Assembly (NCBI GenBank): GCA_021107945.1
Contig: JAIORV010000131.1
Span: 1 to 64,000, forward strand
Origin: Vulcanimicrobiota bacterium
GTDB lineage: Bacteria; Vulcanimicrobiota; JAJTBE01
DNA length: 64,000 bases
Direction of reading: 5' to 3'
A program made the position numbers and the translations under genes. Positions within the stretch are counted from its first letter, which is position 1. Each line of letters starts with the position of its first letter. Below the pieces are notes generated by a model that saw only the letters and a program-made list of their open reading frames with translations, ran no database searches and was not told the origin of the DNA. Below, piece after piece: positions 4,872 through 34,680 of the stretch.

Positions 4872-5213
4872 ATGAAATTACGCGCAAGAAAAAATATACC
4901 CAGGGAAAAGAATAAACTCTCGGTGAAAGAAATCGCCGTTCCCCTGAAACTGCCTGAAAAGATGATAAAAGACATAGAAAAAGAAAGCGCCCCACTTGAA
5001 ATGGAATATTTACACCGGATATGTTTCGTATTGGGATATCCCATAACATGGTTCCTCGCTGATGAGTCGAACGAGGCTTGGAATAGGAGTAAGAAGTTCT
5101 ATGAACGGTGGTTGGACAGGGGAAAAGAGGATTGGAAATTCCGGGGCAAAATGTCGCAATCCCTTATTCATCAGGGGGGTCTTTCCGAGGGAGATGTTAG
5201 TAGAGCGCAATGA
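4872..5213 (+). CDS. Small HTH-like protein whose 3' end runs into the first CRISPR repeat
   Basis: MKLRARKNIPREKNKLSVKEIAVPLKLPEKMIKDIEKESAPLEMEYLHRICFVLGYPITWFLADE; residues after GKM are translated repeat. Confidence 0.45.
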   Translation: MKLRARKNIPREKNKLSVKEIAVPLKLPEKMIKDIEKESAPLEMEYLHRICFVLGYPITWFLADESNEAWNRSKKFYERWLDRGKEDWKFRGKMSQSLIHQGGLSEGDVSRAQ

Positions 5214-6219
5214 CACCAAAGAAAAGTCGCAATCCCTTATTCATCAGGGGGGTCTTTCCGAGATACGTCCAAAAGATAACGCACCATCAGAGGCAAATTA
5301 ACATGTCGCAATCCCTTATTCATCAGGGGGGTCTTTCCGAGAGAAAAATGACACCGATATGAGTTTTGATGAGTGTGTCGCAATCCCTTATTCATCAGGG
5401 GGGTCTTTCCGAGACGGAACCGTCCCATACACCAACAGCAACACACCAGCGGTCGCAATCCCTTATTCATCAGGGGGGTCTTTCCGAGACACCAGCGGTC
5501 AGACACGCACACGGTTTATTAATTGTCGCAATCCCTTATTCATCAGGGGGGTCTTTCCGAGATAGAATCCCTTCTATAGGCATAGAATGCTTCGAGAAGG
5601 TCGCAATCCCTTATTCATCAGGGGGGTCTTTCCGAGGGAGACATTGATCCAACCCAACCCAATGCCGGCAAAGTCGCAATCCCTTATTCATCAGGGGGGT
5701 CTTTCCGAGTGAGGGAATTCTTGAGACAATTGGTTTGATCAATATAGTCGCAATCCCTTATTCATCAGGGGGGTCTTTCCGAGATCACAGAGTTGTACTT
5801 CGTGAGAAACTTGAAGAAGTCGCAATCCCTTATTCATCAGGGGGGTCTTTCCGAGACACCACTCTCACAAAAGGAGAGGCTGAGGAAAAGATGTCGCAAT
5901 CCCTTATTCATCAGGGGGGTCTTTCCGAGGGATGCCGCTAAATTCGTCAACCAAGCGGCAGAAGGTCGCAATCCCTTATTCATCAGGGGGGTCTTTCCGA
6001 GGTTTCCAAATTATCATCTTACATTGTATCTGGAAATGTCGCAATCCCTTATTCATCAGGGGGGTCTTTCCGAGTCATTGGAGCCATAGGGATTTTCACA
6101 GTCGCCCTGGTGTCGCAATCCCTTATTCATCAGGGGGGTCTTTCCGAGATTACCGCGTCAGGTCATCAGGGAGAAGACTTTCGTCGCAATCCCTTATTCA
6201 TCAGGGGGGTCTTTCCGAG
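5153..6219 (-). CRISPR. CRISPR array, 15 repeats / 14 spacers
   Basis: Repeat (37 nt, + strand) GTCGCAATCCCTTATTCATCAGGGGGGTCTTTCCGAG starting at 5153, 5226, 5305, 5377, 5452, 5525, 5600, 5673, 5747, 5819, 5893, 5965, 6038, 6112, 6183; spacers about 34-42 nt. Minus orientation is inferred because the reverse complement ends ...GGATTGCGAC, like the usual ATTGAAAC 3' handle. Confidence 0.97.
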
Positions 6220-6977
6220 TCCATTCTCTGAAGTTCAGTATTCATGCGGGCTAAAAACAGGGTTTGCAAGAATCAGCAAAACATCATTTATTGAATTTTC
6301 TAAAATCGTTCTTTCCCAGCAACCACGGGGGATAGCGCGATTCACTAATTTTTGTTGAATATAATAAATCAAAATTCTTTTATAACCCTCCAAAAATCCC
6401 TTCCTGAAGCCTTTAATCCAGTCTTTATTATTCCTTTTAGTTATATTCGGTTGTGCTTAATTTCACGAGCCCGATCTCCCAAGCCAGCATAAAACCTGGG
6501 TTCCGTCCCTTGAATTTTATGCAATTCCTTGCAAGAAATTGAGAGCGTCTTAAGCCCGTAAAACAAGACGCCACGAAGGATCGGCCTTAAAAAAACGTGG
6601 TAAATATGCTTCAATACTTGGCGTGACATTCAATCATTCGCTACAAATGGATAGTAATGCCCGATAATTGAAAAATGCACACCTATACTTGACTGATTTG
6701 TATCATTCCAACTCTCAGAAACACGCAGATTGAAGAATATTCCTCAAGCCGCCTTGAGGCCAGAAAACATAACATCTCCAGCGATTCCTGACATCTTATA
6801 AAACCAACTCGAATTTCAAGTTGACCGGCATTATACAAAGCGCATTATATAACAGTTATACTCTTCATCGCCGGGGGTTAAAAATTAAAGATTACAAACC
6901 ATACTTGAAAACCCGATTAGATTAAATAATTTCGCTTTTTCTGAAGCTTCTCCTTCTTTAAAACAGTAGAAACATAT

Positions 6978-7430
6978 GATTTCGCAATCCCTTATTCATC
7001 AGGGGTGGGTTTCCTATAGCTGCCTCCGGAATACCGCATGAACACTGCCTTTCCGAGACCGATTTCGCGGACCCCATTGGATTTTAAATTATTTCAATAA
7101 ATATTTCTTGAAATAATATCAATTTATTGTCGGAAGTCCTTGGTACTTCTGAGTATCCTCGATTTATACAGCGATTACGGACTTATGCGGTTTATGAAGC
7201 CTCAAAATCGCGGTCTACTTTGTGAATGATTTCACCATCCAGCAATACTGCGGATTTGGGGGGATTGTCCCTGAAGAACCTGGCAATACCGCTATTTTTC
7301 CGATGACCACTGGGATTCCGCCCTTTTTGCCAATAAACTTGAATTTATTACTATTTTTTGCAGGGAAAAAACTAAACAATTAATACCATAAAAAGTTTTC
7401 TCCAGTCAAACCCAAAATCCTTCCCAATTT
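6978..7430. repeat. Left arm of a large inverted repeat, outer end is a CRISPR-type repeat
   Basis: TTTCGCAATCCCTTATTCATCAGGGGTGGGTTTCCTATAGCTGCCTCCGGAATACCGCATGAACACTGCCTTTCCGAGACC... matches the reverse complement of 9036-9470 nearly throughout. Confidence 0.9.
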
Positions 7431-7492
7431 GTATTTGTTCAGACCTTCCTTAGAGGAATAACTTTCCTACAGTGAGAGGTCTGAATAGTTAC
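7431..7492. repeat. MITE-like repeat with TATTCAGACC-type ends
   Basis: GTATTTGTTCAGACC...GAGAGGTCTGAATAGTTAC, terminal inverted repeat. Confidence 0.6.
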
Positions 7493-7584
7493 ATAATTTC
7501 TTTTAACACTACTGGTATATCTTAAACAATGTACAAAATTTTATGTTCTGTTATACTATTATACTATTTTCCATAAATCTGTCA

Positions 7585-7796
7585 CAATTCACTGTAGCAT
7601 TATTCCAATTTACCTTCCACCTTATTTGCCGGATCTAAATCCAATCGAAATTTTATGGAATGTTGTCAAAGACAAGCTTTTCAATGAAATCCCGCCCGAA
7701 GATCATAAAGAATTGCAAGACAGGATATAGGTCGTTATCAAACAGCCAATCGATAAGCCGGAGCAGGTTAAATCCATATGCAAAGTAAACTATTGA
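7585..7796 (+). pseudogene. IS630-family transposase C-terminal remnant
   Basis: Reads IYLPPYLPDLNPIEILWNVVKDKLFNEIPPEDHKELQDRI*VVIKQPIDKPEQVKSICKVNY*; DDE C-terminal motif PPY.PDLNPIE..W. Confidence 0.75.
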
Positions 7797-7891
7797 TTCA
7801 TGATGGAATTTTGGGAATTAGTATAAACTTACCGATATCGTGCAGAAGTGCCGCTATGGTTATTTCTTCCATTGAAAAATTCTTGCCGTTA

Positions 7892-8830
7892 CTACTCATC
7901 TCCCACCGCCTTCATTTCATATCTCCCTTGTCCAAACGAAGTGCCTCTGCCAATGTGAATGATTTCTCCTATTTTGAGGAAATCGTGGAATGGGGTAAGG
8001 TCTCCTTCCAGGATGAAATCACCAATAATCCCTTCCATGCCTATTTTCCTTCCCTGCCGAGTGCTGAATCTCTCACGATAGACGGGGGTCAGGTTAGGAT
8101 TCCTGACGGACAGTGGCTTCGCCTTTTCTTTTAATCCTCGAAAATCTATTTCCACTTCTTGTCCCAGATGAAAATAGGATATGTTGCCAAGCCTTCTCAG
8201 AAGCGTAATAATAAAGCTTTCAGGCACGATACCTTGCAGAGGAAGTCCGTTTTTTCGAATGGCAAGGGGAGATTTCAATGAGAATTTTATCCCGGATAAT
8301 CTTCCCGCCCCCGATGCTGGCTTTTTCTCGGCACAAATCTCAAAAGCGCAGGTCTCCGGTTTGTTCGAAGTCATATTGCCATCTTCAAAAAGACTCAGGT
8401 TGGCAGGTAAATCCACAACCCTCTCCAGGTCAAACCGGCTCCTGTCTCTCCCCAGCCCGGACTTTCCCAATCGGATAAAAGAATGGATAAAATAGGGAAG
8501 ATATTTTGACGCGCCTCCAAAAAGCTTCAAGCCGAACGAAATCCGTCTCTCTTCATTTTTAAGTAAATACAGGACAAAGGGATGGGGGACGTGGTTGTAT
8601 TTTCTCATTTTCTTTGTGTCCGGTGGAGGCATTGTCTCGAAGACATATTGATAAACACAGGTGTGCTTGTAATCACATTTGTTACATTCCGAATCCTGGT
8701 TTATACAGACTGTATTTTTAAAATTGAAGCCGAATCCCCCCCGGATTGTGGCTTCCAGGAACCTTGACTCCACTGGCTTTTCCAGGTTCAGGTCAAATTG
8801 ATAATGGCCGTAGGTAAATAGCAAGGGCAT
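7892..8830 (-). CDS. cas6: CRISPR pre-crRNA endoribonuclease Cas6 (RAMP)
   Basis: 312 aa; C-terminal LKIGEIIHIGRGTSFGQGRYEM glycine-rich RAMP motif; N-terminal Cys cluster CINQDSECNKCDYKHTC. Confidence 0.85.
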   Translation of the reverse strand: MPLLFTYGHYQFDLNLEKPVESRFLEATIRGGFGFNFKNTVCINQDSECNKCDYKHTCVYQYVFETMPPPDTKKMRKYNHVPHPFVLYLLKNEERRISFGLKLFGGASKYLPYFIHSFIRLGKSGLGRDRSRFDLERVVDLPANLSLFEDGNMTSNKPETCAFEICAEKKPASGAGRLSGIKFSLKSPLAIRKNGLPLQGIVPESFIITLLRRLGNISYFHLGQEVEIDFRGLKEKAKPLSVRNPNLTPVYRERFSTRQGRKIGMEGIIGDFILEGDLTPFHDFLKIGEIIHIGRGTSFGQGRYEMKAVGDE

Positions 8831-8930
8831 CGTTTCCTTTTTTCTTAACTTTCAATTGAAGGAAGGCTTCATCGTCAAGCATTCGTTTCCCCCTATTAGA
8901 TTAAGATTTGAAAGTCACTTGTACATGTTT

Positions 8931-9035
8931 TGTATTTATTCAGACCACCCCAGGATTTGGGTAGTGGCTGGTCTCCCGACCAGTCTGGAAATGGTATAAA
9001 ATCGAAGCTACAGTGAGAGGTTTGAATAGTTACAA
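8931..9035. repeat. MITE-like palindromic repeat
   Basis: TGTATTTATTCAGACC...GGCTGGTCTCCCGACCAGTCTGG...GAGAGGTTTGAATAGTTAC; reverse complement matches 10286-10402. Confidence 0.75.
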
Positions 9036-9470
9036 GGATTTTGGGTCCGATTGTTGAAAATTGTTTATAGGTAATTTAGTTTTTTCCCTGCAAAAAATGG
9101 TAATAAATTTAAGTTTTTTGGCAAAAATGGCGGAACCCCAGTAGTCATCGAACAAATCACAGCGCCGCCAAGGTTTTTAGAGACCATCCCCCAAAACTCG
9201 CAGTATTGCTGGATGGTGAAATCATTCGCAAAGTAGGCCGCGATTTTGAGGCTTCATAAACCGCATAAGTCCGTAATCGCTGTATAAATCGAGGAGCCTC
9301 AGAAGTACCAAGGACTTCCGGCAATAAATTGATATTGTTTCAAGAAATATTTATTGAAATATTTTAAAATCCAATAGGGTCCGCGAAATTGGTCTCGGAA
9401 AGACAGTGTTCATGCGGGATTCCGGAGGCAGCTATAGGAACCCCACCCCTGACGAATAAGGGATTGCGAC
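9036..9470. repeat. Right arm of the inverted repeat (counterpart of 6978-7430)
   Basis: Reverse complement aligns with 6978-7430 with scattered substitutions. Confidence 0.9.
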
Positions 9471-9765
9471 TCAATCAATTTTGTCATTGTGGGTTCTTTA
9501 ATACTTCCCAATAGGAAACCCACCTCTGACGAATAAGGGATTGCGACATATATGTGGTAGCGTCTGCATAGATTAAGAATTTACTCGGAAAGCCCCCCCT
9601 GATGAATAAGGGATTGCGACCTCTCCTGCATTGCCAACGCCCCATAAGCATTCATTCATAGGAAACCCATCCCTGATGAATAAGGGATTGAGACCAGTCA
9701 CAAGAGATCCTGAAACAAGTTCAGGATGACGTAGAAACCCACCACCGATCTATGGGGATTGAGAA
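9437..9765 (+). CRISPR. Degenerate second CRISPR array, about 5 repeats
   Basis: Repeats at 9437-9470, 9514-9547, 9584-9620, 9661-9694, 9733-9765. The 9584 copy CTCGGAAAGCCCCCCCTGATGAATAAGGGATTGCGAC is one mismatch from the main-array repeat; the others are GGAAACCCACCCCTGAYGAATAAGGGATTGCGAC-like. Confidence 0.85.
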
Positions 9766-10009: not shown

Positions 10010-10231
10010 ATTATAGCAACATAGGTGGCTGCGGCGTCTCGCCACAGGTTAAAAAGGATAATACTTATTAGAAACAGCTTAATATTATAGCAACATAGGT
10101 GGCTGCGGCGTCTCGCCACAGGTTAAAAAGGATAATACTTATTAGAAACAGCTTAATATTATAGCAACATAGGTGGCTGCGGCGTCTCGCCACAGGTTAA
10201 AAAGGATAATACTTATTAGAAACAGCTTAAT
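10010..10231 (+). repeat. Three tandem 74-bp units
   Basis: ATTATAGCAACATAGGTGGCTGCGGCGTCTCGCCACAGGTTAAAAAGGATAATACTTATTAGAAACAGCTTAAT starting at 10010, 10084, 10158. Confidence 0.95.
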
Positions 10232-10285
10232 ATTGATCATAAATTTGGAATCACAACAAAGGTTGCAGTTGAGCCTGCATATGTA

Positions 10286-25664: not shown

Positions 25665-27032
25665 ATGAGTAGTGAAAGAATGAGCTGGAGAAAGCTATTG
25701 TCCAAAAAGACATTGAGTCTGAAAAGTGAAGATGGGCAAGAAGAATCAGATTTCTATAGAGACATACAGAGTATCGTTTTTTCTTATGCTTTTCGCAGAA
25801 TGCAAAATAAAACCCAGCTTCTGCCAGTTCCTGAATTGGATTTTGTGCATACCAGATTAACGCACAGCTTGGAGGCATTCTGTATCGGAAGAGAGTTGGG
25901 AAGGGAAGTGGGAAAGGTAGTTGTTGAAATAGAAAAAGATAAACTCAAAGATTTTACACCAGATAGTTTTGCAAATATCGTGGGGGCCGCTTGCCTTGCG
26001 CATGACATCGGTAATCCTGCGTTTGGGCATTCCGGGGAAGATGCTTTCAGGGACTTTTTTAAGTATAATGATTCTGGAAAAGATATAATTGAGAATCTCA
26101 ATGATTATCAAAAGAATGACTTCTTATACTTTGAAGGAAACGCACAAGGCTTTAGAACATTGAATAAAGAAGATAAAATACTCCCCAAATTAACCTGTGC
26201 AACATTAGCCTCTTTCATAAAGTATCCAAGAGAATCAAGACACATTGAATCTGAAAATAGAAAAAGAAAAGATCAGAATAAATTTGGCTTTTTTCAGACT
26301 GAAAAAGATTTATTTATAAAATTGGTAAAAGAGGTCGAATTAATAAAACTTGGCCGAAACGATACATTGGCTTATTGCAGACATCCGCTTGCTTATCTTG
26401 TTGAAGCTGCAGATGATATATCCTATAAGATGTTTGATATTGATGACGGCTTCAGACTCAGACTTTTTAATTTGGATGAACGTATTAATGGTACCGATGA
26501 GTCTCTTAAAGAATCACTTGAAAAAATAATCAAAGCAGGCGGGAAGATTCCAGATGAGAAAAAGGAAAAGTTGAATGATGAAAAAGACATTCTTGCATAT
26601 CTCCGTTCAAAATCAATTGAAAGTTTGATAAAGCAGATTGAAAAGGCATTCATGGACAATTACGATAAAATAATGGAAGGAGAATTTGAATGTGATTTAA
26701 TGGAAAAAATTTCATCGAAAAAAGAAGTTGAGAACTTGGATAAGATCGCCAAAGAAAAAATTTATAAATATTTTCCCGTATTGGAAATTGAAGCTGCAGG
26801 CTTTAAAACAATCGGTGGGTTACTTGAGGCATTTCTAAAAGCTGTAATCAAAAAAGATTCAAGATATTCAAGAAAAGTAAAAGAAATGATTCCACCTGAA
26901 TATGATATAGATAATGGAGGCGACTATAAAAAAGCAATGAAAATTGTTGATTACATATGCGGCATGTCCGATGATTATGCGATTTCACTATATAAAAAAA
27001 TTCATGGAATTTCATTACCTCGTTTATATTAA
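25665..27032 (+). CDS. dGTPase-like HD-domain triphosphohydrolase
   Basis: AFRRMQNKTQLLP...RLTHSLEAFCIGREL...ACLAHDIGNPAFGHSGE...YLVEAADDISYKMFDIDDG. Confidence 0.9.
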   Translation: MSSERMSWRKLLSKKTLSLKSEDGQEESDFYRDIQSIVFSYAFRRMQNKTQLLPVPELDFVHTRLTHSLEAFCIGRELGREVGKVVVEIEKDKLKDFTPDSFANIVGAACLAHDIGNPAFGHSGEDAFRDFFKYNDSGKDIIENLNDYQKNDFLYFEGNAQGFRTLNKEDKILPKLTCATLASFIKYPRESRHIESENRKRKDQNKFGFFQTEKDLFIKLVKEVELIKLGRNDTLAYCRHPLAYLVEAADDISYKMFDIDDGFRLRLFNLDERINGTDESLKESLEKIIKAGGKIPDEKKEKLNDEKDILAYLRSKSIESLIKQIEKAFMDNYDKIMEGEFECDLMEKISSKKEVENLDKIAKEKIYKYFPVLEIEAAGFKTIGGLLEAFLKAVIKKDSRYSRKVKEMIPPEYDIDNGGDYKKAMKIVDYICGMSDDYAISLYKKIHGISLPRLY

Positions 27033-27241: not shown

Positions 27242-28978
27242 CTAATCTGGGTTCAATAAATCAAACCCTTTACCGCGAACGATCCTGAGTTCAGTATCCC
27301 CAGCATTGCCTGTCGGCTTCGCACTGATAACGCCAAGCCATGGATAATCCTTAAGGTAGGAATCAAGGATCATATAACCCCAAATTGGACCCCGCATATC
27401 AATGCAAGCTCCACGCCCATCAGTCGATTCTTTAAAGTCTTCAATATTAGCATCTAGCAACTCAATCAGTTGCGCGGGCGAAAACAATCCATTAGATATT
27501 ATTTTGAAGCGCTTTGCCGCTACACAAGGTGTGTCAACTTTTAAATTTAATATTGAATTTAGATTATAGTTACCCAGGATTTCTTTGTTCCCATTATCAA
27601 ATTCCTTATATATATAATCTCCAACTTTAATAGTGGCATTATCGGCATTCTCATCAGCATAACAAACCACATAAGCGTCGATAGACGGACAATACACCGC
27701 AATATATCTGAATTCCTTAAGATAATCCGCAAGCATAAGATATGTCCAGGCAGGCCCGCCCATATTGATAAGGATCCCAAAATCAGATGGATTTTCCTTT
27801 AATGTTGGATCATTTTCTACCAGATTTTTAAATTCCAACGAAAGAAGATTGGATTTCTTTTTAAGAATTCTACGAATTTCTATTGCATCTTTAGTCAACC
27901 CGTTTTCTTTAACTTTTATCTTGCTAACTCTGTCATTATCAAAAATTGTGTTTTCATCAATTACTGCATTTGAAAGATCAACGCCCATTAGATCCGCTTC
28001 CGTCAAATTCGCACCGGATAAATCAGTTTTAAATATAATTGCATCTTTTAATCGCGCTTTCATCAATTTGGCATTCTGAAGTTTTGCCTTGGATAAATCA
28101 CTGCCCTCTAAATATGCTGAAGATAAATCGGCGCCGGTAAGAATCGCAGATTTTAATTTTGCCCCGTTAAGCTTTGCAGCCTTTAAATTTATTCCGGCAA
28201 GTTCAAGACCGCTCAGGTTTGCTTTTGACAAATCGGCCCCGGACAGATTTGTTCCACCAAACTCCGCCTTGCTAAGATCGGCATTCATAAATTCCGCCCT
28301 GCAAAGATTTGCTCCAAGGAATTCTGTGCCTTCCAAGCTGGCGGTTTTGTGACGATCGTCTCTATCTCCAAATACTGCGCCTGATAAATTTAAACCGGAC
28401 AAATCCAGTCCGTTAAGAATTGCCCCCCTGAAAGATGCACCTTTGAGTTTTATGTTATCAAATTTTGCACGTCTGAGGTCAAGTTTGTCCAGGGTTGCCC
28501 CGGTCAAGTTAACTGATTTTAAATTAGCGCCATTTAAGTCAGCGGAAGTTAAATCCGCTGCCGTGAGGTCTGTTCCAGAGAGATTTGCGCTATTTAAATT
28601 AGCGGAAGTTAAATCAGCCGCCGTAAGATCTGCTCCTGAGAGATTGGTGTCAATTAATACAGCCAATCTTAAATTCGCTCCCGATAGATTTGCTCCACCA
28701 AACTTCGCCTTGCTCAGATCGGCACTCATAAACTCCGCCTTGCATAGATTGGCATTCATAAACTCCGCCTTGTAAAGATTTGCTCCAAGGAATTTTGTAC
28801 CTTCCAAACTGGCGGCTTTGTGATGATCGTCTCTATCTCCAAATACTGCGCCTGATAAATTTAAACCGGACAAATTCAGCCCGTCAAGAATTGATCCCCT
28901 GAAAGATGCATCTTTCAGTATTGTTCGATCAAATGTTGTATTTCTGAGGTCAAGTTTGTCCAGGGTTGCCCCGGTCAA
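27242..28978 (-). CDS. Pentapeptide-repeat protein with C-terminal Csx3-like domains, probably 5'-truncated
   Basis: Many A(D/N)LXX repeats; C-terminus FGILINMGGPAWTYLMLADYLKEFRYIAVYCPSIDAYVVCY...KVGDYI and ACIDMRGPIWGYMILDSYLKDYPWLGVISAK. Predicted start is TTG in mid-repeat. Confidence 0.8.
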   Translation of the reverse strand: MTGATLDKLDLRNTTFDRTILKDASFRGSILDGLNLSGLNLSGAVFGDRDDHHKAASLEGTKFLGANLYKAEFMNANLCKAEFMSADLSKAKFGGANLSGANLRLAVLIDTNLSGADLTAADLTSANLNSANLSGTDLTAADLTSADLNGANLKSVNLTGATLDKLDLRRAKFDNIKLKGASFRGAILNGLDLSGLNLSGAVFGDRDDRHKTASLEGTEFLGANLCRAEFMNADLSKAEFGGTNLSGADLSKANLSGLELAGINLKAAKLNGAKLKSAILTGADLSSAYLEGSDLSKAKLQNAKLMKARLKDAIIFKTDLSGANLTEADLMGVDLSNAVIDENTIFDNDRVSKIKVKENGLTKDAIEIRRILKKKSNLLSLEFKNLVENDPTLKENPSDFGILINMGGPAWTYLMLADYLKEFRYIAVYCPSIDAYVVCYADENADNATIKVGDYIYKEFDNGNKEILGNYNLNSILNLKVDTPCVAAKRFKIISNGLFSPAQLIELLDANIEDFKESTDGRGACIDMRGPIWGYMILDSYLKDYPWLGVISAKPTGNAGDTELRIVRGKGFDLLNPD

Positions 28979-29721
28979 GTCAACTGATGTTAAATCAGCG
29001 GAAGTTAAATCAGCCGCTGTAAGATCTGCTCTTGAGAGATTGGCACCTATTAATTCAGCGGAAGTTAAATCAGCCGCCGTGAGGTATATTCCTGAGAGAT
29101 TGGCGCCTATTAATTTGGGTGCACATGTTTCCTGTCAAAAATATTTATTACTATTCAGATCCCACCATCATGTCGTCCTGAACGGAATACGATCTCTTAA
29201 TTTACTGGATAAGCTTTGGTAAGACCTATCCCCGAACCCTTCGCTCCGCTCGAGGGCAAGCTCCGTGAAGGAACGGATTTTACTTACCTCCGATGTATAA
29301 ATCAGCGAAGGATCTCCTCTCCCGGGTTCTTCTCACAACAATCATTCATATTAATACTTGCTCCTCCATGCCACGGGGGTTGAGATTCTTCGCTGTGTTA
29401 ATCCTCGTAGATCAAGATAATCCCGTCTTTGAGAAAATCATAGAAGTAAAGCTCTTCTCTCGTGATCCGCTCAGAAGGACATGCTCAAGTCTTTCTTGAT
29501 CCGCTCAGAAGGACAAGAATTCCTGGGGGATTGAATAATTACGCCTGAACCTTTGACAAAAAGTAAATGCACACATATGATTTTATACCGATAGATCCTG
29601 AAACAAGTTCAGGATGACGAATTCAAGCCGTTTCTTTTAATAATGCATAAGTCCTGTTGAATGAAACCATGCCTCATGATAAAGGTTTGAAAAAGAGTGA
29701 AAATGATATATCTGATTGAGC

Positions 29722-31024: not shown

Positions 31025-33709
31025 TCAACTAATTGCTACCGGAACTATCACGCCCACTTCTTGTGCCACGGGAGTATAAATATCTACTTTCTGTTCAGGA
31101 GTTCTTATTGTAACTATCAAGGAATATCGTGCCTTGCTTTCACATTTGCCGAGATAGGCTCTCTCCCGCCACCAGCCAACAATAGGGACAACAGCAATAT
31201 AGTGTGATTCTGCCAGATCTGCCGCTATTCCTTTCCAGATATCAGAATGGATAGATCCTTTATCACGGCCTTTACTTCCGATTACCCAACGGTCAGATGC
31301 GCTTTTTGTTTTCAGGTGCCCTTCATCTTCATCCCTTGCTTCAGCGTTAATTCTCTTAATGAATTGTTCCCGTTTTTCCGTAGGCGAATTTATTTTGAAA
31401 CGCAACGCATATGAGGGATAACGATAACGATCTTTCCATCCTATTTCACCTGGACCGGGTTCAATGAAATATGACAAAGTGACTCTCATTTCAACTTCTG
31501 CATCTTGCAATTCTCTGAGAATTTCTATTGGCCAAGGTAGATCATAGAGATGCATATCCCGCGTTCTGTTCTTTTCATAAGGTTGAATTTCTGCTTGAGA
31601 TATCAATGTAAGAGAATTCATCGCACTATATAATGCTCTCTCTAAATTCGGTACACCATATCCACAGGCACGTAGTACATCCCTTAGTTGAGTTTTAGAG
31701 TCACCCTTAGCAAATTGACTTTTTAATGCATCCGTCCATTCGGCAGAATGTACGACGAGAGCACGAATCGTTTCAGGCCAGTAGTCAGGGTAGCGAATTT
31801 GAATTTGCGCAGCAAAGTGTGCGCCCTGTGCCGCTGCGGCGCTTGTCATATTAAAGCTTTCAAATAACCGGGCTTGTGGCTGATAATTCGTTGAAAGAAG
31901 AGAAAGATCATCACACTCCGATGAAAATTCATGTTCTTTAACTGCCGCATTTCCGCCTTCCATAACTATTTCTGGTTTGATAGGCCATTTATTATCCCAA
32001 GTCAATGAAGTAGTAGAGAAGGGCGAAAGTTGGTTTACTTGTGCAATTGGCAAATAGCCTTTGAGGGTTGGATCGGTTATCGTCGTTAATTGTGTATAAG
32101 CTCCAACGGTAAGCGCATTCCATGACTGAGCCGGATCGTGCACAGAATCTGTGATTTGATTATCTGGATAATTTGATAACTGATTGAAATCGGTTATATT
32201 ACCGGCACTAACCACCATGAGTCGTTTTGTCCCATCATCGACACCAGAAGTTATCTGATCTAATGCTCCTGACCAGGAAGAAGGTTTTCCTCTGTCCCGA
32301 TTATCAGAAGCAGTAACTGCCATACAACAAATACGCTTTCGGTCTGGTGCTTGAATTTCAGCAAGACTTACGCCTTGAGAGGTAATATAGCCCCAAAGTT
32401 CAGGTTTATTTTTCCCTCTCCCTTCCGGTGGGAGAATCTTAACGGACTCAAGCATGTGATTTATGAATATAGGTCCTTGACCGGAAAGATGTTCTGCAAG
32501 ATTTCCATAGCCAGAAATTCCAGCCATTAAAGTGCCATGACCATAATGGTCGTGACTCCCCCATAGAGGATCAAAACTCTGGCAATCAGCACTGTCCAGT
32601 ATGGGAGAAATCAAGGGATGCCCGTTGTTTACCCCTGTATCGAGAATGCAGACTGAAACTAAAGACTCCCTATTCACCTGCAGGCGTTCTATAATATCTT
32701 CAGCCCACTTTGCCTGCTCCCGATTCGGCATCTCAGTCCAGAATGTTGTCGTATCTTTTGCTTTGCGGAACCCAGCAATATCATCAGAGAGCCGGGTTAA
32801 ATCTGCAAGTTGCTCATTATTAACAAATACCAGTTTAACCGCTCGCTCTGGGAATATAATATAATTCAATTTTGAAACTATATTCAGATCGTCAATAAGT
32901 TTCTCAAGACGTTTAATAACATCAGGTTTATCATCTTTAACCGCCCGCTCTGGAAATATAACATCAGGATTATCATCGCGGAGCCAGACTTCGCACCATT
33001 GCGGTTTTTCATCTGGGATGAGTGAGTGATCATCATGCCAAAATGATTCAATAAAAAGAGCTTTACGTATATCGGCAATACTATTAATTAAATTTGCATT
33101 TTTAGGTTTTCCGGGAATCTTCAGTCTCACTCCCACAACTGTAGGCAAAATTGAACGGGTAAACGGGTAAATCTTCGATGAATGCTTTCTCCAGATTTTT
33201 TTAAGTCCACGAAACTCATTCAAAAAAGAGGGGGGGTTGAATAAATATGGTTTTCCCGTTTCACTTTCCTTTCTGGCGTATTCTTTTATTTTATTAAAGA
33301 AGTATTGTTTTTTTTCTTTATTAACAAAAACTGTTGCAAAGGTAACGGGCAGTTCTTCAAATTCATCAGTTTCTTCATTTCTTATAAGTTCCTTTTCGAC
33401 ACGGATATTACACAACCTGATTTTTTTTGACAGCATATCCTCAAGACTTTTTGTCACTAAGTCGTATCCGGGAGAACCTCGAAATTCAAGATAGACTCCC
33501 TGTCTGACTACATGGCTTACAACAAACTCACTCTCCGCTTCTCTCCATGCCTGTTCAAGCTGTTTTTTTAGAAAAGCAGCATGCCTTCGCCTCCCTATCT
33601 TGGGAATCGGTATCTGCTTACGTGCTCCTCCTTGAGAAATGCTGGTAAACCCCCGTCTTTTAGGAGGTTTAGGAAGTAATATATGAGGTAAATTCTCTTG
33701 TGGCATCAT
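31025..33709 (-). CDS. Subtilisin-like S8 serine protease, IetS-like
   Basis: CILDTGVNNGHPLI (Asp), YGHGTLMAGISG (His), FNMTSAAAAQGAHFAAQI (Ser region); overlaps upstream AAA ATPase gene. Confidence 0.88.
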   Translation of the reverse strand: MMPQENLPHILLPKPPKRRGFTSISQGGARKQIPIPKIGRRRHAAFLKKQLEQAWREAESEFVVSHVVRQGVYLEFRGSPGYDLVTKSLEDMLSKKIRLCNIRVEKELIRNEETDEFEELPVTFATVFVNKEKKQYFFNKIKEYARKESETGKPYLFNPPSFLNEFRGLKKIWRKHSSKIYPFTRSILPTVVGVRLKIPGKPKNANLINSIADIRKALFIESFWHDDHSLIPDEKPQWCEVWLRDDNPDVIFPERAVKDDKPDVIKRLEKLIDDLNIVSKLNYIIFPERAVKLVFVNNEQLADLTRLSDDIAGFRKAKDTTTFWTEMPNREQAKWAEDIIERLQVNRESLVSVCILDTGVNNGHPLISPILDSADCQSFDPLWGSHDHYGHGTLMAGISGYGNLAEHLSGQGPIFINHMLESVKILPPEGRGKNKPELWGYITSQGVSLAEIQAPDRKRICCMAVTASDNRDRGKPSSWSGALDQITSGVDDGTKRLMVVSAGNITDFNQLSNYPDNQITDSVHDPAQSWNALTVGAYTQLTTITDPTLKGYLPIAQVNQLSPFSTTSLTWDNKWPIKPEIVMEGGNAAVKEHEFSSECDDLSLLSTNYQPQARLFESFNMTSAAAAQGAHFAAQIQIRYPDYWPETIRALVVHSAEWTDALKSQFAKGDSKTQLRDVLRACGYGVPNLERALYSAMNSLTLISQAEIQPYEKNRTRDMHLYDLPWPIEILRELQDAEVEMRVTLSYFIEPGPGEIGWKDRYRYPSYALRFKINSPTEKREQFIKRINAEARDEDEGHLKTKSASDRWVIGSKGRDKGSIHSDIWKGIAADLAESHYIAVVPIVGWWRERAYLGKCESKARYSLIVTIRTPEQKVDIYTPVAQEVGVIVPVAIS

Positions 33710-34680
33710 ATCTCACCTCTTAAACCTTTGAGGGCTTCCTGTCGATTGCGAATTACTTTGAGTAACGAGGTTGCATTGACTTTCGTAATATCGTTAAGGA
33801 TAGCAGTTTTTATTGAGTCTTTACAGGCGTGGTCAATTTCAGCGTGGCTTAAACCTTCACTATTAGAAAGCACCGTTTTCCAAGCGAACTTTCTTTCTTT
33901 GAATGTCCCCAGCACATTCTCGATCAAGCGTTTCCGGTCATCCTTGTCCGGGGCCCTATAATAAAGAACATCATCAAATCGGCGAAAAAGTGCCCGATCT
34001 AACAGTTTTGGATTATTAGTAGCTGCAATGATTATACTATCAGATGTATCCTGCTCGATGAATTGCAGAAATGCATTGAGGACACGCCGCATTTCACCCA
34101 CATCGTTATCCATGGAGCGTTCACCGCCAATTGCGTCAAATTCATCAAATAGATAAATTCCAGGGGACTGTTGCATAAGATCAAAAATCTGACGCAATTT
34201 AGCACTGGTTTCACCCATAAACTTGGTTACCAGGCGATCTACCTGGATTGTATTCAGGGATAGATGAAGTTCTTTAGCAAACACCCGAGCAGTCATAGTC
34301 TTTCCGGTCCCTGGAGGTCCAATTAACAATAGTTTACGGCGATGTGAGAGACCATAAGATTTAAGTTTCTCCTGCTGCCTATACTCATGAATGACCTGAT
34401 GAATTCGTTCCATAAGTAAGTCCGGTATAACAAGGGATGCCTTCGAAATCTGTGGCTCCTCAGTTAAAACTAAACCTTTTAAATCCTGTGGAAATGATAA
34501 GATACGTGGACCCTTTTTTTTACGCTCAGTATCTATAATCTGCCGAATATCGTGAGCTAAGGCAGCATGCCCCTGCTTAGCCTCATGAGCTGCAACCTGC
34601 AATGCCATAGTGTAAAATCGCTCCGACTGCTCACTAAAATGTGAGCGGATGAGGGATTTTAGTTGAGCTGCAGTAGCCAT
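33706..34680 (-). CDS. AAA+ ATPase, IetA-like
   Basis: LLIGPPGTGKTMTARVFAKEL, GIYLFDEFDAIGGER, IIAATNNPKLLDRALFRRFDDVL. Confidence 0.9.
   Translation of the reverse strand: MATAAQLKSLIRSHFSEQSERFYTMALQVAAHEAKQGHAALAHDIRQIIDTERKKKGPRILSFPQDLKGLVLTEEPQISKASLVIPDLLMERIHQVIHEYRQQEKLKSYGLSHRRKLLLIGPPGTGKTMTARVFAKELHLSLNTIQVDRLVTKFMGETSAKLRQIFDLMQQSPGIYLFDEFDAIGGERSMDNDVGEMRRVLNAFLQFIEQDTSDSIIIAATNNPKLLDRALFRRFDDVLYYRAPDKDDRKRLIENVLGTFKERKFAWKTVLSNSEGLSHAEIDHACKDSIKTAILNDITKVNATSLLKVIRNRQEALKGLRGEI

Follow-up and report, generated by a model that had tools for sequence, protein, structure and literature searches.

The window analysed here, a stretch of 64,000 nucleotides from a Vulcanimicrobiota bacterium, encodes on its minus strand a long pentapeptide-repeat protein that ends in two Csx3-like domains, an architecture that is new although its parts are known. 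Our preferred reading, to which we give a probability of roughly 0.4, is that the two domains form a non-cleaving, Cat1-like tandem Csx3 module that would sense cyclic oligoadenylates and is carried on a pentapeptide-repeat scaffold. This reading is preferred because both domains belong to the Csx3 family, have lost their catalytic residues and share a lysine (Lys60) with Cat1 (K225), because tandem Csx3 chains have precedent, and because the genome encodes a GGDD-type Cas10 and a CARF-PDDEXK effector and the gene has defence neighbours. The fusion had been proposed in a first-pass annotation of this DNA, and Pfam, PADLOC and an independent HMM agree on its Csx3 part. Both peptides quoted in that annotation are encoded in the minus-strand frame with its end at 27242; the interval assigned to the feature, 27242-27800, is too small, as the frame reaches 29134.

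The first Csx3-like domain (d1) lies at 27575-27850 on the minus strand, with a Pfam core match at 27659-27784 and the motif NMGGPAWTYLMLADYLKE...YCPS, and is joined to the repeats by a linker at 27851-27958 on the same strand that has no family match. The second domain (d2), at 27245-27499 on the minus strand, carries the motif DMRGPIWGYMILDSYLKD...ISAK, and its last strands are short or absent. The GPxW motifs of the two domains are 122 residues apart, and a pairwise comparison of d1 with d2 gives 39% over 36 aa (E 1e-8). With Pfam Cas_csx3, the whole protein scores 31.5 bits (E 1.6e-7), where 21 bits are needed to pass; with the PADLOC Csx3 profile it reaches 5.3e-9, d1 alone 5.2e-6 and d2 alone 1.1e-3, and Csx3 is still the top match of each domain taken by itself. 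Below the respective cut-offs are the NCBIfam equivalog TIGR02579 (26.1 bits, cut-off 55.4) and d2 alone with Cas_csx3 (16.2 bits). A Csx3 HMM made from other organisms only, and hence built without any window sequence, scores the frame at 41.2 bits and the next-best frame of the window at 7.9, and the top score among 5000 shuffles of the C-terminal region is 8.2 bits, which rules out a chance resemblance to Csx3; d2 alone is found by the same HMM at E 0.0014 in a search of 5000 sequences. At the level of sequence, the assignment of d1 as a Csx3-type domain can be regarded as secure, and that of d2 is weaker by itself, though d2 matches d1.

Structure prediction supports the fold only in part, since the AlphaFold inputs held Csx3 rows aligned to d1 and are biased in that direction: two models of the C-terminal region have mean pLDDT values of 47 and 56, with the d1 core at about 63-83 in the second. 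In Foldseek searches against the PDB, both low-confidence models rank AfCsx3 first and also find Cat1, and a structural search against viral models returned no match. AfCsx3 comes first in the profiles as well as in both models, so the outcome that would have refuted the first-pass reading, a lack of any structural match to Csx3, did not arise.

The catalytic residues tell how far the two domains have diverged. H60 and D69 of AfCsx3 are essential, activity being abolished in the H60A and D69A mutants; R71 and H80 are important, with strongly reduced activity in R71A and H80A; H57 is absolutely conserved, and the pocket for cyclic tetra-adenylate (cA4) includes main-chain contacts at G45 and I49 (PMC7371418). 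The equivalents of H57, H60, D69, R71 and H80 are D, K, C, S and D in d1 and S, K, S, K and a gap in d2. The replacement of the DPR-type motif noticed earlier (as CPS and SAK) is borne out, with D69/P70/R71 reading C/P/S in d1 and S/A/K in d2, and the description of the domains as degenerate stands, all five residues examined being missing from both. Because all five ring-nuclease residues are lost, neither d1 nor d2 should cut cA4.

Residues were compared across 142 Csx3-like domains, comprising those of the fetched loci together with d1, d2, the Cat1 fragment and AfCsx3. H57, H60, D69 and R71 are retained together in 43 of the 142, and in 32 all three of H60, D69 and R71 are absent, so that dead Csx3 copies are not unique to the window. 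Two positions set the window domains apart. Gly45, in the G-R-G-P-I-W motif, is glycine in 139 of the 142 domains and methionine in both window domains and no others, which is a warning sign against simple cA4 binding. Position 60 is lysine in both window domains and in only four of the 140 others, namely Cat1, its homologue at locus L112 and two more. The Trp of GPxW, the Tyr two residues on and Lys60 are kept in d1 and d2. Lys60 is encoded at 27716-27718 in d1 and at 27350-27352 in d2, and the Trp at 27746-27748 and 27380-27382.

Cat1 itself is linked to Csx3 by sequence. A Csx3 profile matches residues 196-256 of Cat1 (PDB 9MUD) at E 0.005 without gaps, and this alignment equates W50 with W215, H60 with K225 and D69 with N234; the window-free Csx3 HMM finds the Cat1 fragment at E 3e-4. 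The TIR protein at L112 (7128-7991, minus strand), a Cat1 homologue that matches 9mud lengthwise at E 1e-60, scores 21.0 bits with Pfam Cas_csx3, exactly at the cut-off. By these alignments, Cat1 binds cA4 through what is itself a degenerate Csx3 domain, although the main text of the Cat1 paper mentions neither Csx3 nor Crn3 (PMC12162218). According to the same paper, W215, K225, N226, R227 and S235 are essential cA4 contacts and N234 is also a contact, cA4 is sandwiched between stacked dimers, filaments form, and there is no ring-nuclease activity (PMC12162218). Since Cat1 offers a natural case of a Csx3-type domain that holds cA4 uncut, the proposal that the window domains only bind a ligand is better founded than before, and we regard it as plausible by analogy. 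Of the Cat1 contacts, only the equivalents of W215 and K225 are kept in the window, in both domains; those of N226/R227 are E/F in d1 and D/Y in d2, and those of N234/S235 are C/P in d1 and S/A in d2, which counts against the preferred reading. Given the link between Cat1 and Csx3 by sequence, Csx3 is a reusable sensor whose cutting activity has been repeatedly lost, and the change from His to Lys at position 60 is a concrete residue of interest for Csx3-type sensing.

The N-terminal part of the protein is a repeat region at 27959-29134 on the minus strand, with 392 residues in about 75 repeats that fall into three in-register runs (19, 30 and 26) and a net charge of -7. Pfam pentapeptide families match it at up to 4.6e-69, the value of PF00805, which covers 10 stretches. 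The repeats follow the A(D/N)LXX pattern of the family, and a right-handed beta-helix would be expected from this membership. A mimic of DNA in the manner of Qnr or MfpA is unsupported by the charge, -7 being spread over the whole region. Within the repeats, a unit of 300 nt is duplicated: the copy nearer the C terminus (28259-28558, minus strand) is 87% identical to, and 471 nt from, the N-terminal copy (28730-29029, minus strand).

The gene lies in a defence island. A three-gene block at 10643-23004 matches a DruE-like helicase, DpdE (877 bits) and a DrmMI/type IIG methyltransferase, and has the look of a defence operon that is either mixed or new; a dGTPase is encoded at 25665-27032, and the defence pair IetS and IetA (31025-34680, minus strand) lies upstream of the Csx3 gene on the same strand, with two small genes between. 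The distance to cas6, put at about 18 kb in the first-pass annotation, proved accurate: cas6 lies at 7892-8830 between two CRISPR arrays, about 18.4 kb away. The arrays flanking it (within 5148-9694) have near-identical repeats in opposite orientation, and related repeats occur on contigs C5 and C94. In the intergenic stretch at 10010-10234, a 74-nt unit is repeated in tandem, three times and exactly. Of a type III CRISPR locus, the window contains only cas6 and the arrays, and the genes of the window that were scanned include no cas10, so the proximity of cas6 is weak evidence for a link to type III CRISPR. The one Cas10 match of the genome, on another contig (C109), is of III-D type, has an intact GGDD motif and adjoins a CARF-PDDEXK nuclease and RAMP genes. 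Given this GGDD-type Cas10, the host can probably make a cyclic oligoadenylate. Its genome has no Csx3 match other than the window gene.

With these elements, a mechanism can be proposed by analogy with Cat1. Domains d1 and d2 would pair inside one chain as a pseudo-dimer, and a cyclic oligoadenylate made by Cas10, most likely cA4, would be gripped uncut between the pseudo-dimers of successive chains, which would stack head to tail as Cat1 and inactive Csx3 do. The output would be a cluster of beta-helical rods that may serve as a scaffold or block some target, for instance a DNA enzyme. Known cA4 effectors are nucleases, proteases, TIR NADases, membrane pores and other enzymes, and a repeat-protein rod as the output of a cA4 effector would be new. 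In its stronger form, in which cA4 stacks the pseudo-dimer chains and the target of the clustered beta-helices is, for example, a DNA enzyme, the proposal would define a new class of cyclic-oligoadenylate-activated CRISPR effector, and in this form we consider it doubtful. If the putative binding holds, the protein may be a new type of sensor instead of an off-switch. Weighing against the preferred reading are the location of the gene outside the cas10 locus, a frame that perhaps has no proper start, the failure to find a homologue of the architecture, and the weak structure models.

The alternative that survives best, somewhat unlikely in our estimate, is that the Csx3 fold has been kept for oligomerisation, for protein binding or for another ligand, unrelated to cyclic oligoadenylates, and that the rod does the work. 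It stays alive because of the loss of Gly45, and it gains from the loss of all catalytic residues along with this pocket glycine, from the absence of linkage to cas10 and from the occurrence of Csx3-type domains in non-CRISPR conflict proteins, the VMAP ternary systems (PMC7159879). However, the Trp of GPxW, Tyr+2 and Lys60 are kept, the Lys and Trp being those that Cat1 uses for cA4, and the genome can probably make cyclic oligoadenylates, both of which count against this alternative.

The 5' end of the gene raises a different possibility, that of a decaying gene whose start is truncated or frameshifted and whose Csx3 domains are eroding. The whole open frame (27242-29134, minus strand) has 630 codons from stop to stop, and its first allowed in-frame start, TTG at 28978, gives a protein of 578 aa. 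Repeats homologous to the later ones already begin upstream of this TTG, and the N-terminal copy of the duplicated unit lies partly upstream of it. There is no in-frame ATG or GTG start for this frame; the nearest ATG (29124-29126, minus strand), which follows a ribosome-binding-like AGGA, is shifted by one base relative to the frame of the repeats. There may be a frameshift or a truncation at the 5' end, or else an error in the assembly. Decay would also fit the absence of a normal C-terminal end in d2 and of clear purifying selection between the copies of the internal duplication, where dN/dS is about 0.87 over only 27 changes, too few to decide. Against it, 630 codons run without a stop, the shifted frame could stem from the assembly, and the replacements common to both domains (Met45, Lys60 and a YLK motif) are non-random, which suggests a common divergent ancestor under constraint and not random decay. 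On balance we consider decay improbable.

We give a low probability, too, to a sponge, in which the tandem domains would sequester cA4 uncut and damp the type III response in the manner of the non-enzymatic Csx15, with the rod spacing or anchoring them. Sponging of cA4 by catalytically dead relatives has precedent in Csx15 (PMC13148439), and the gene lies outside the cas10 locus, but a sponge has no need of a long repeat rod, and cA4 binding by the window domains is only putative. An active ring nuclease that degrades cA4 with unusual catalytic residues has nothing but the family resemblance in its favour and is rejected as very improbable on residues, H57, H60, D69, R71 and H80 being replaced in both domains.

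Searches for further proteins of this architecture found no second example. Among 149 genomes of the same phylum, the C-terminal region matched only in the window's own genome; no close relatives were found through exact peptides in viral contigs or by tblastn in plasmids and phages. When a degenerate GPxW pattern, a single motif that can miss members, was run over 85,488 species, it retrieved four ordinary Csx3 loci, none with pentapeptides. In total, no second pentapeptide-Csx3 chain appeared in 1,987 genome slots (some genomes repeated), in the species scan or in the plasmid, phage and viral sets, and pentapeptide runs are absent from all 102 Csx3-containing frames of the fetched loci, where the longest five-register run is 6, compared with 30 for the window protein. 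The literature passages found using both terms do not describe such a fusion.

Csx3 does occur in other multidomain chains, which were found as AAA-Csx3-Csx3, Csx3-Csx3-AAA, CARF-HEPN-Csx3 and TIR-Csx3. Chains of the AAA-Csx3-Csx3 type, of about 400 aa, are widespread in one phylum (L041, L042, L116 and many other loci); their second domain, in which Q often replaces both D69 and R71 and R replaces H60, is probably non-catalytic judging from these residues. The C-terminal Csx3-like domain of L134, L136 and L138 carries AP-I/V-W-x-Y, HALHGKA and SPV motifs, and D69 is not conserved in it. A phage-like Pyramidobacter plasmid record (L017:2902-3186) and IMG/VR viral contigs (L022-L025) carry Csx3 genes that are candidate viral ring nucleases of the Crn3 type. 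A full-length Csx3 with all catalytic residues at L019:7408-7797 adjoins a GGDEF protein, with no obvious cas gene nearby.

Compared with known systems, the window protein combines features of several. With Csx3/Crn3 (AfCsx3, PDB 3WZI and 6YUD; PF09620) it shares the profile match in both domains, d1 exceeding the Pfam cut-off, as well as the GPxW core and the predicted core topology; it differs in having two domains and a pentapeptide rod in one chain, five replaced functional residues and Met for Gly45, a score of 26 bits where the NCBIfam equivalog cut-off is 55, and a location outside the cas10 locus. The AAA-Csx3-Csx3 and Csx3-Csx3-AAA chains (L041, L042, L108-L111, L116) resemble it in their tandem Csx3 domains with catalytic residues often lost, whereas they are fused to a P-loop kinase-like domain, and their position 60 is usually R or A instead of K. 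CARF-HEPN-Csx3 proteins (L134, L136, L138; PADLOC CARF_HEPN_CSX3) likewise carry a Csx3-like module at the C terminus of a larger CRISPR effector, but keep the two histidines and are fused to CARF-HEPN. Pentapeptide-repeat proteins such as MfpA/Qnr and HetL (PF00805) are like its N-terminal region of about 75 pentapeptides; unlike them, the window protein is only mildly acidic, DNA mimicry is not obvious and a sensor-like C terminus is added. Cat1, the TIR-CARF filament effector (PDB 9MUD; PMC12162218), has a single sensor domain and a TIR, whereas the window protein has two sensor domains, no Pfam match to a TIR NADase domain and different residues at the equivalents of N226, R227, N234 and S235. 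Both nevertheless end in Csx3-type domains that are degenerate and, judged by their residues, non-cleaving, and they share the Trp equivalent to W215 and the Lys equivalent to K225.
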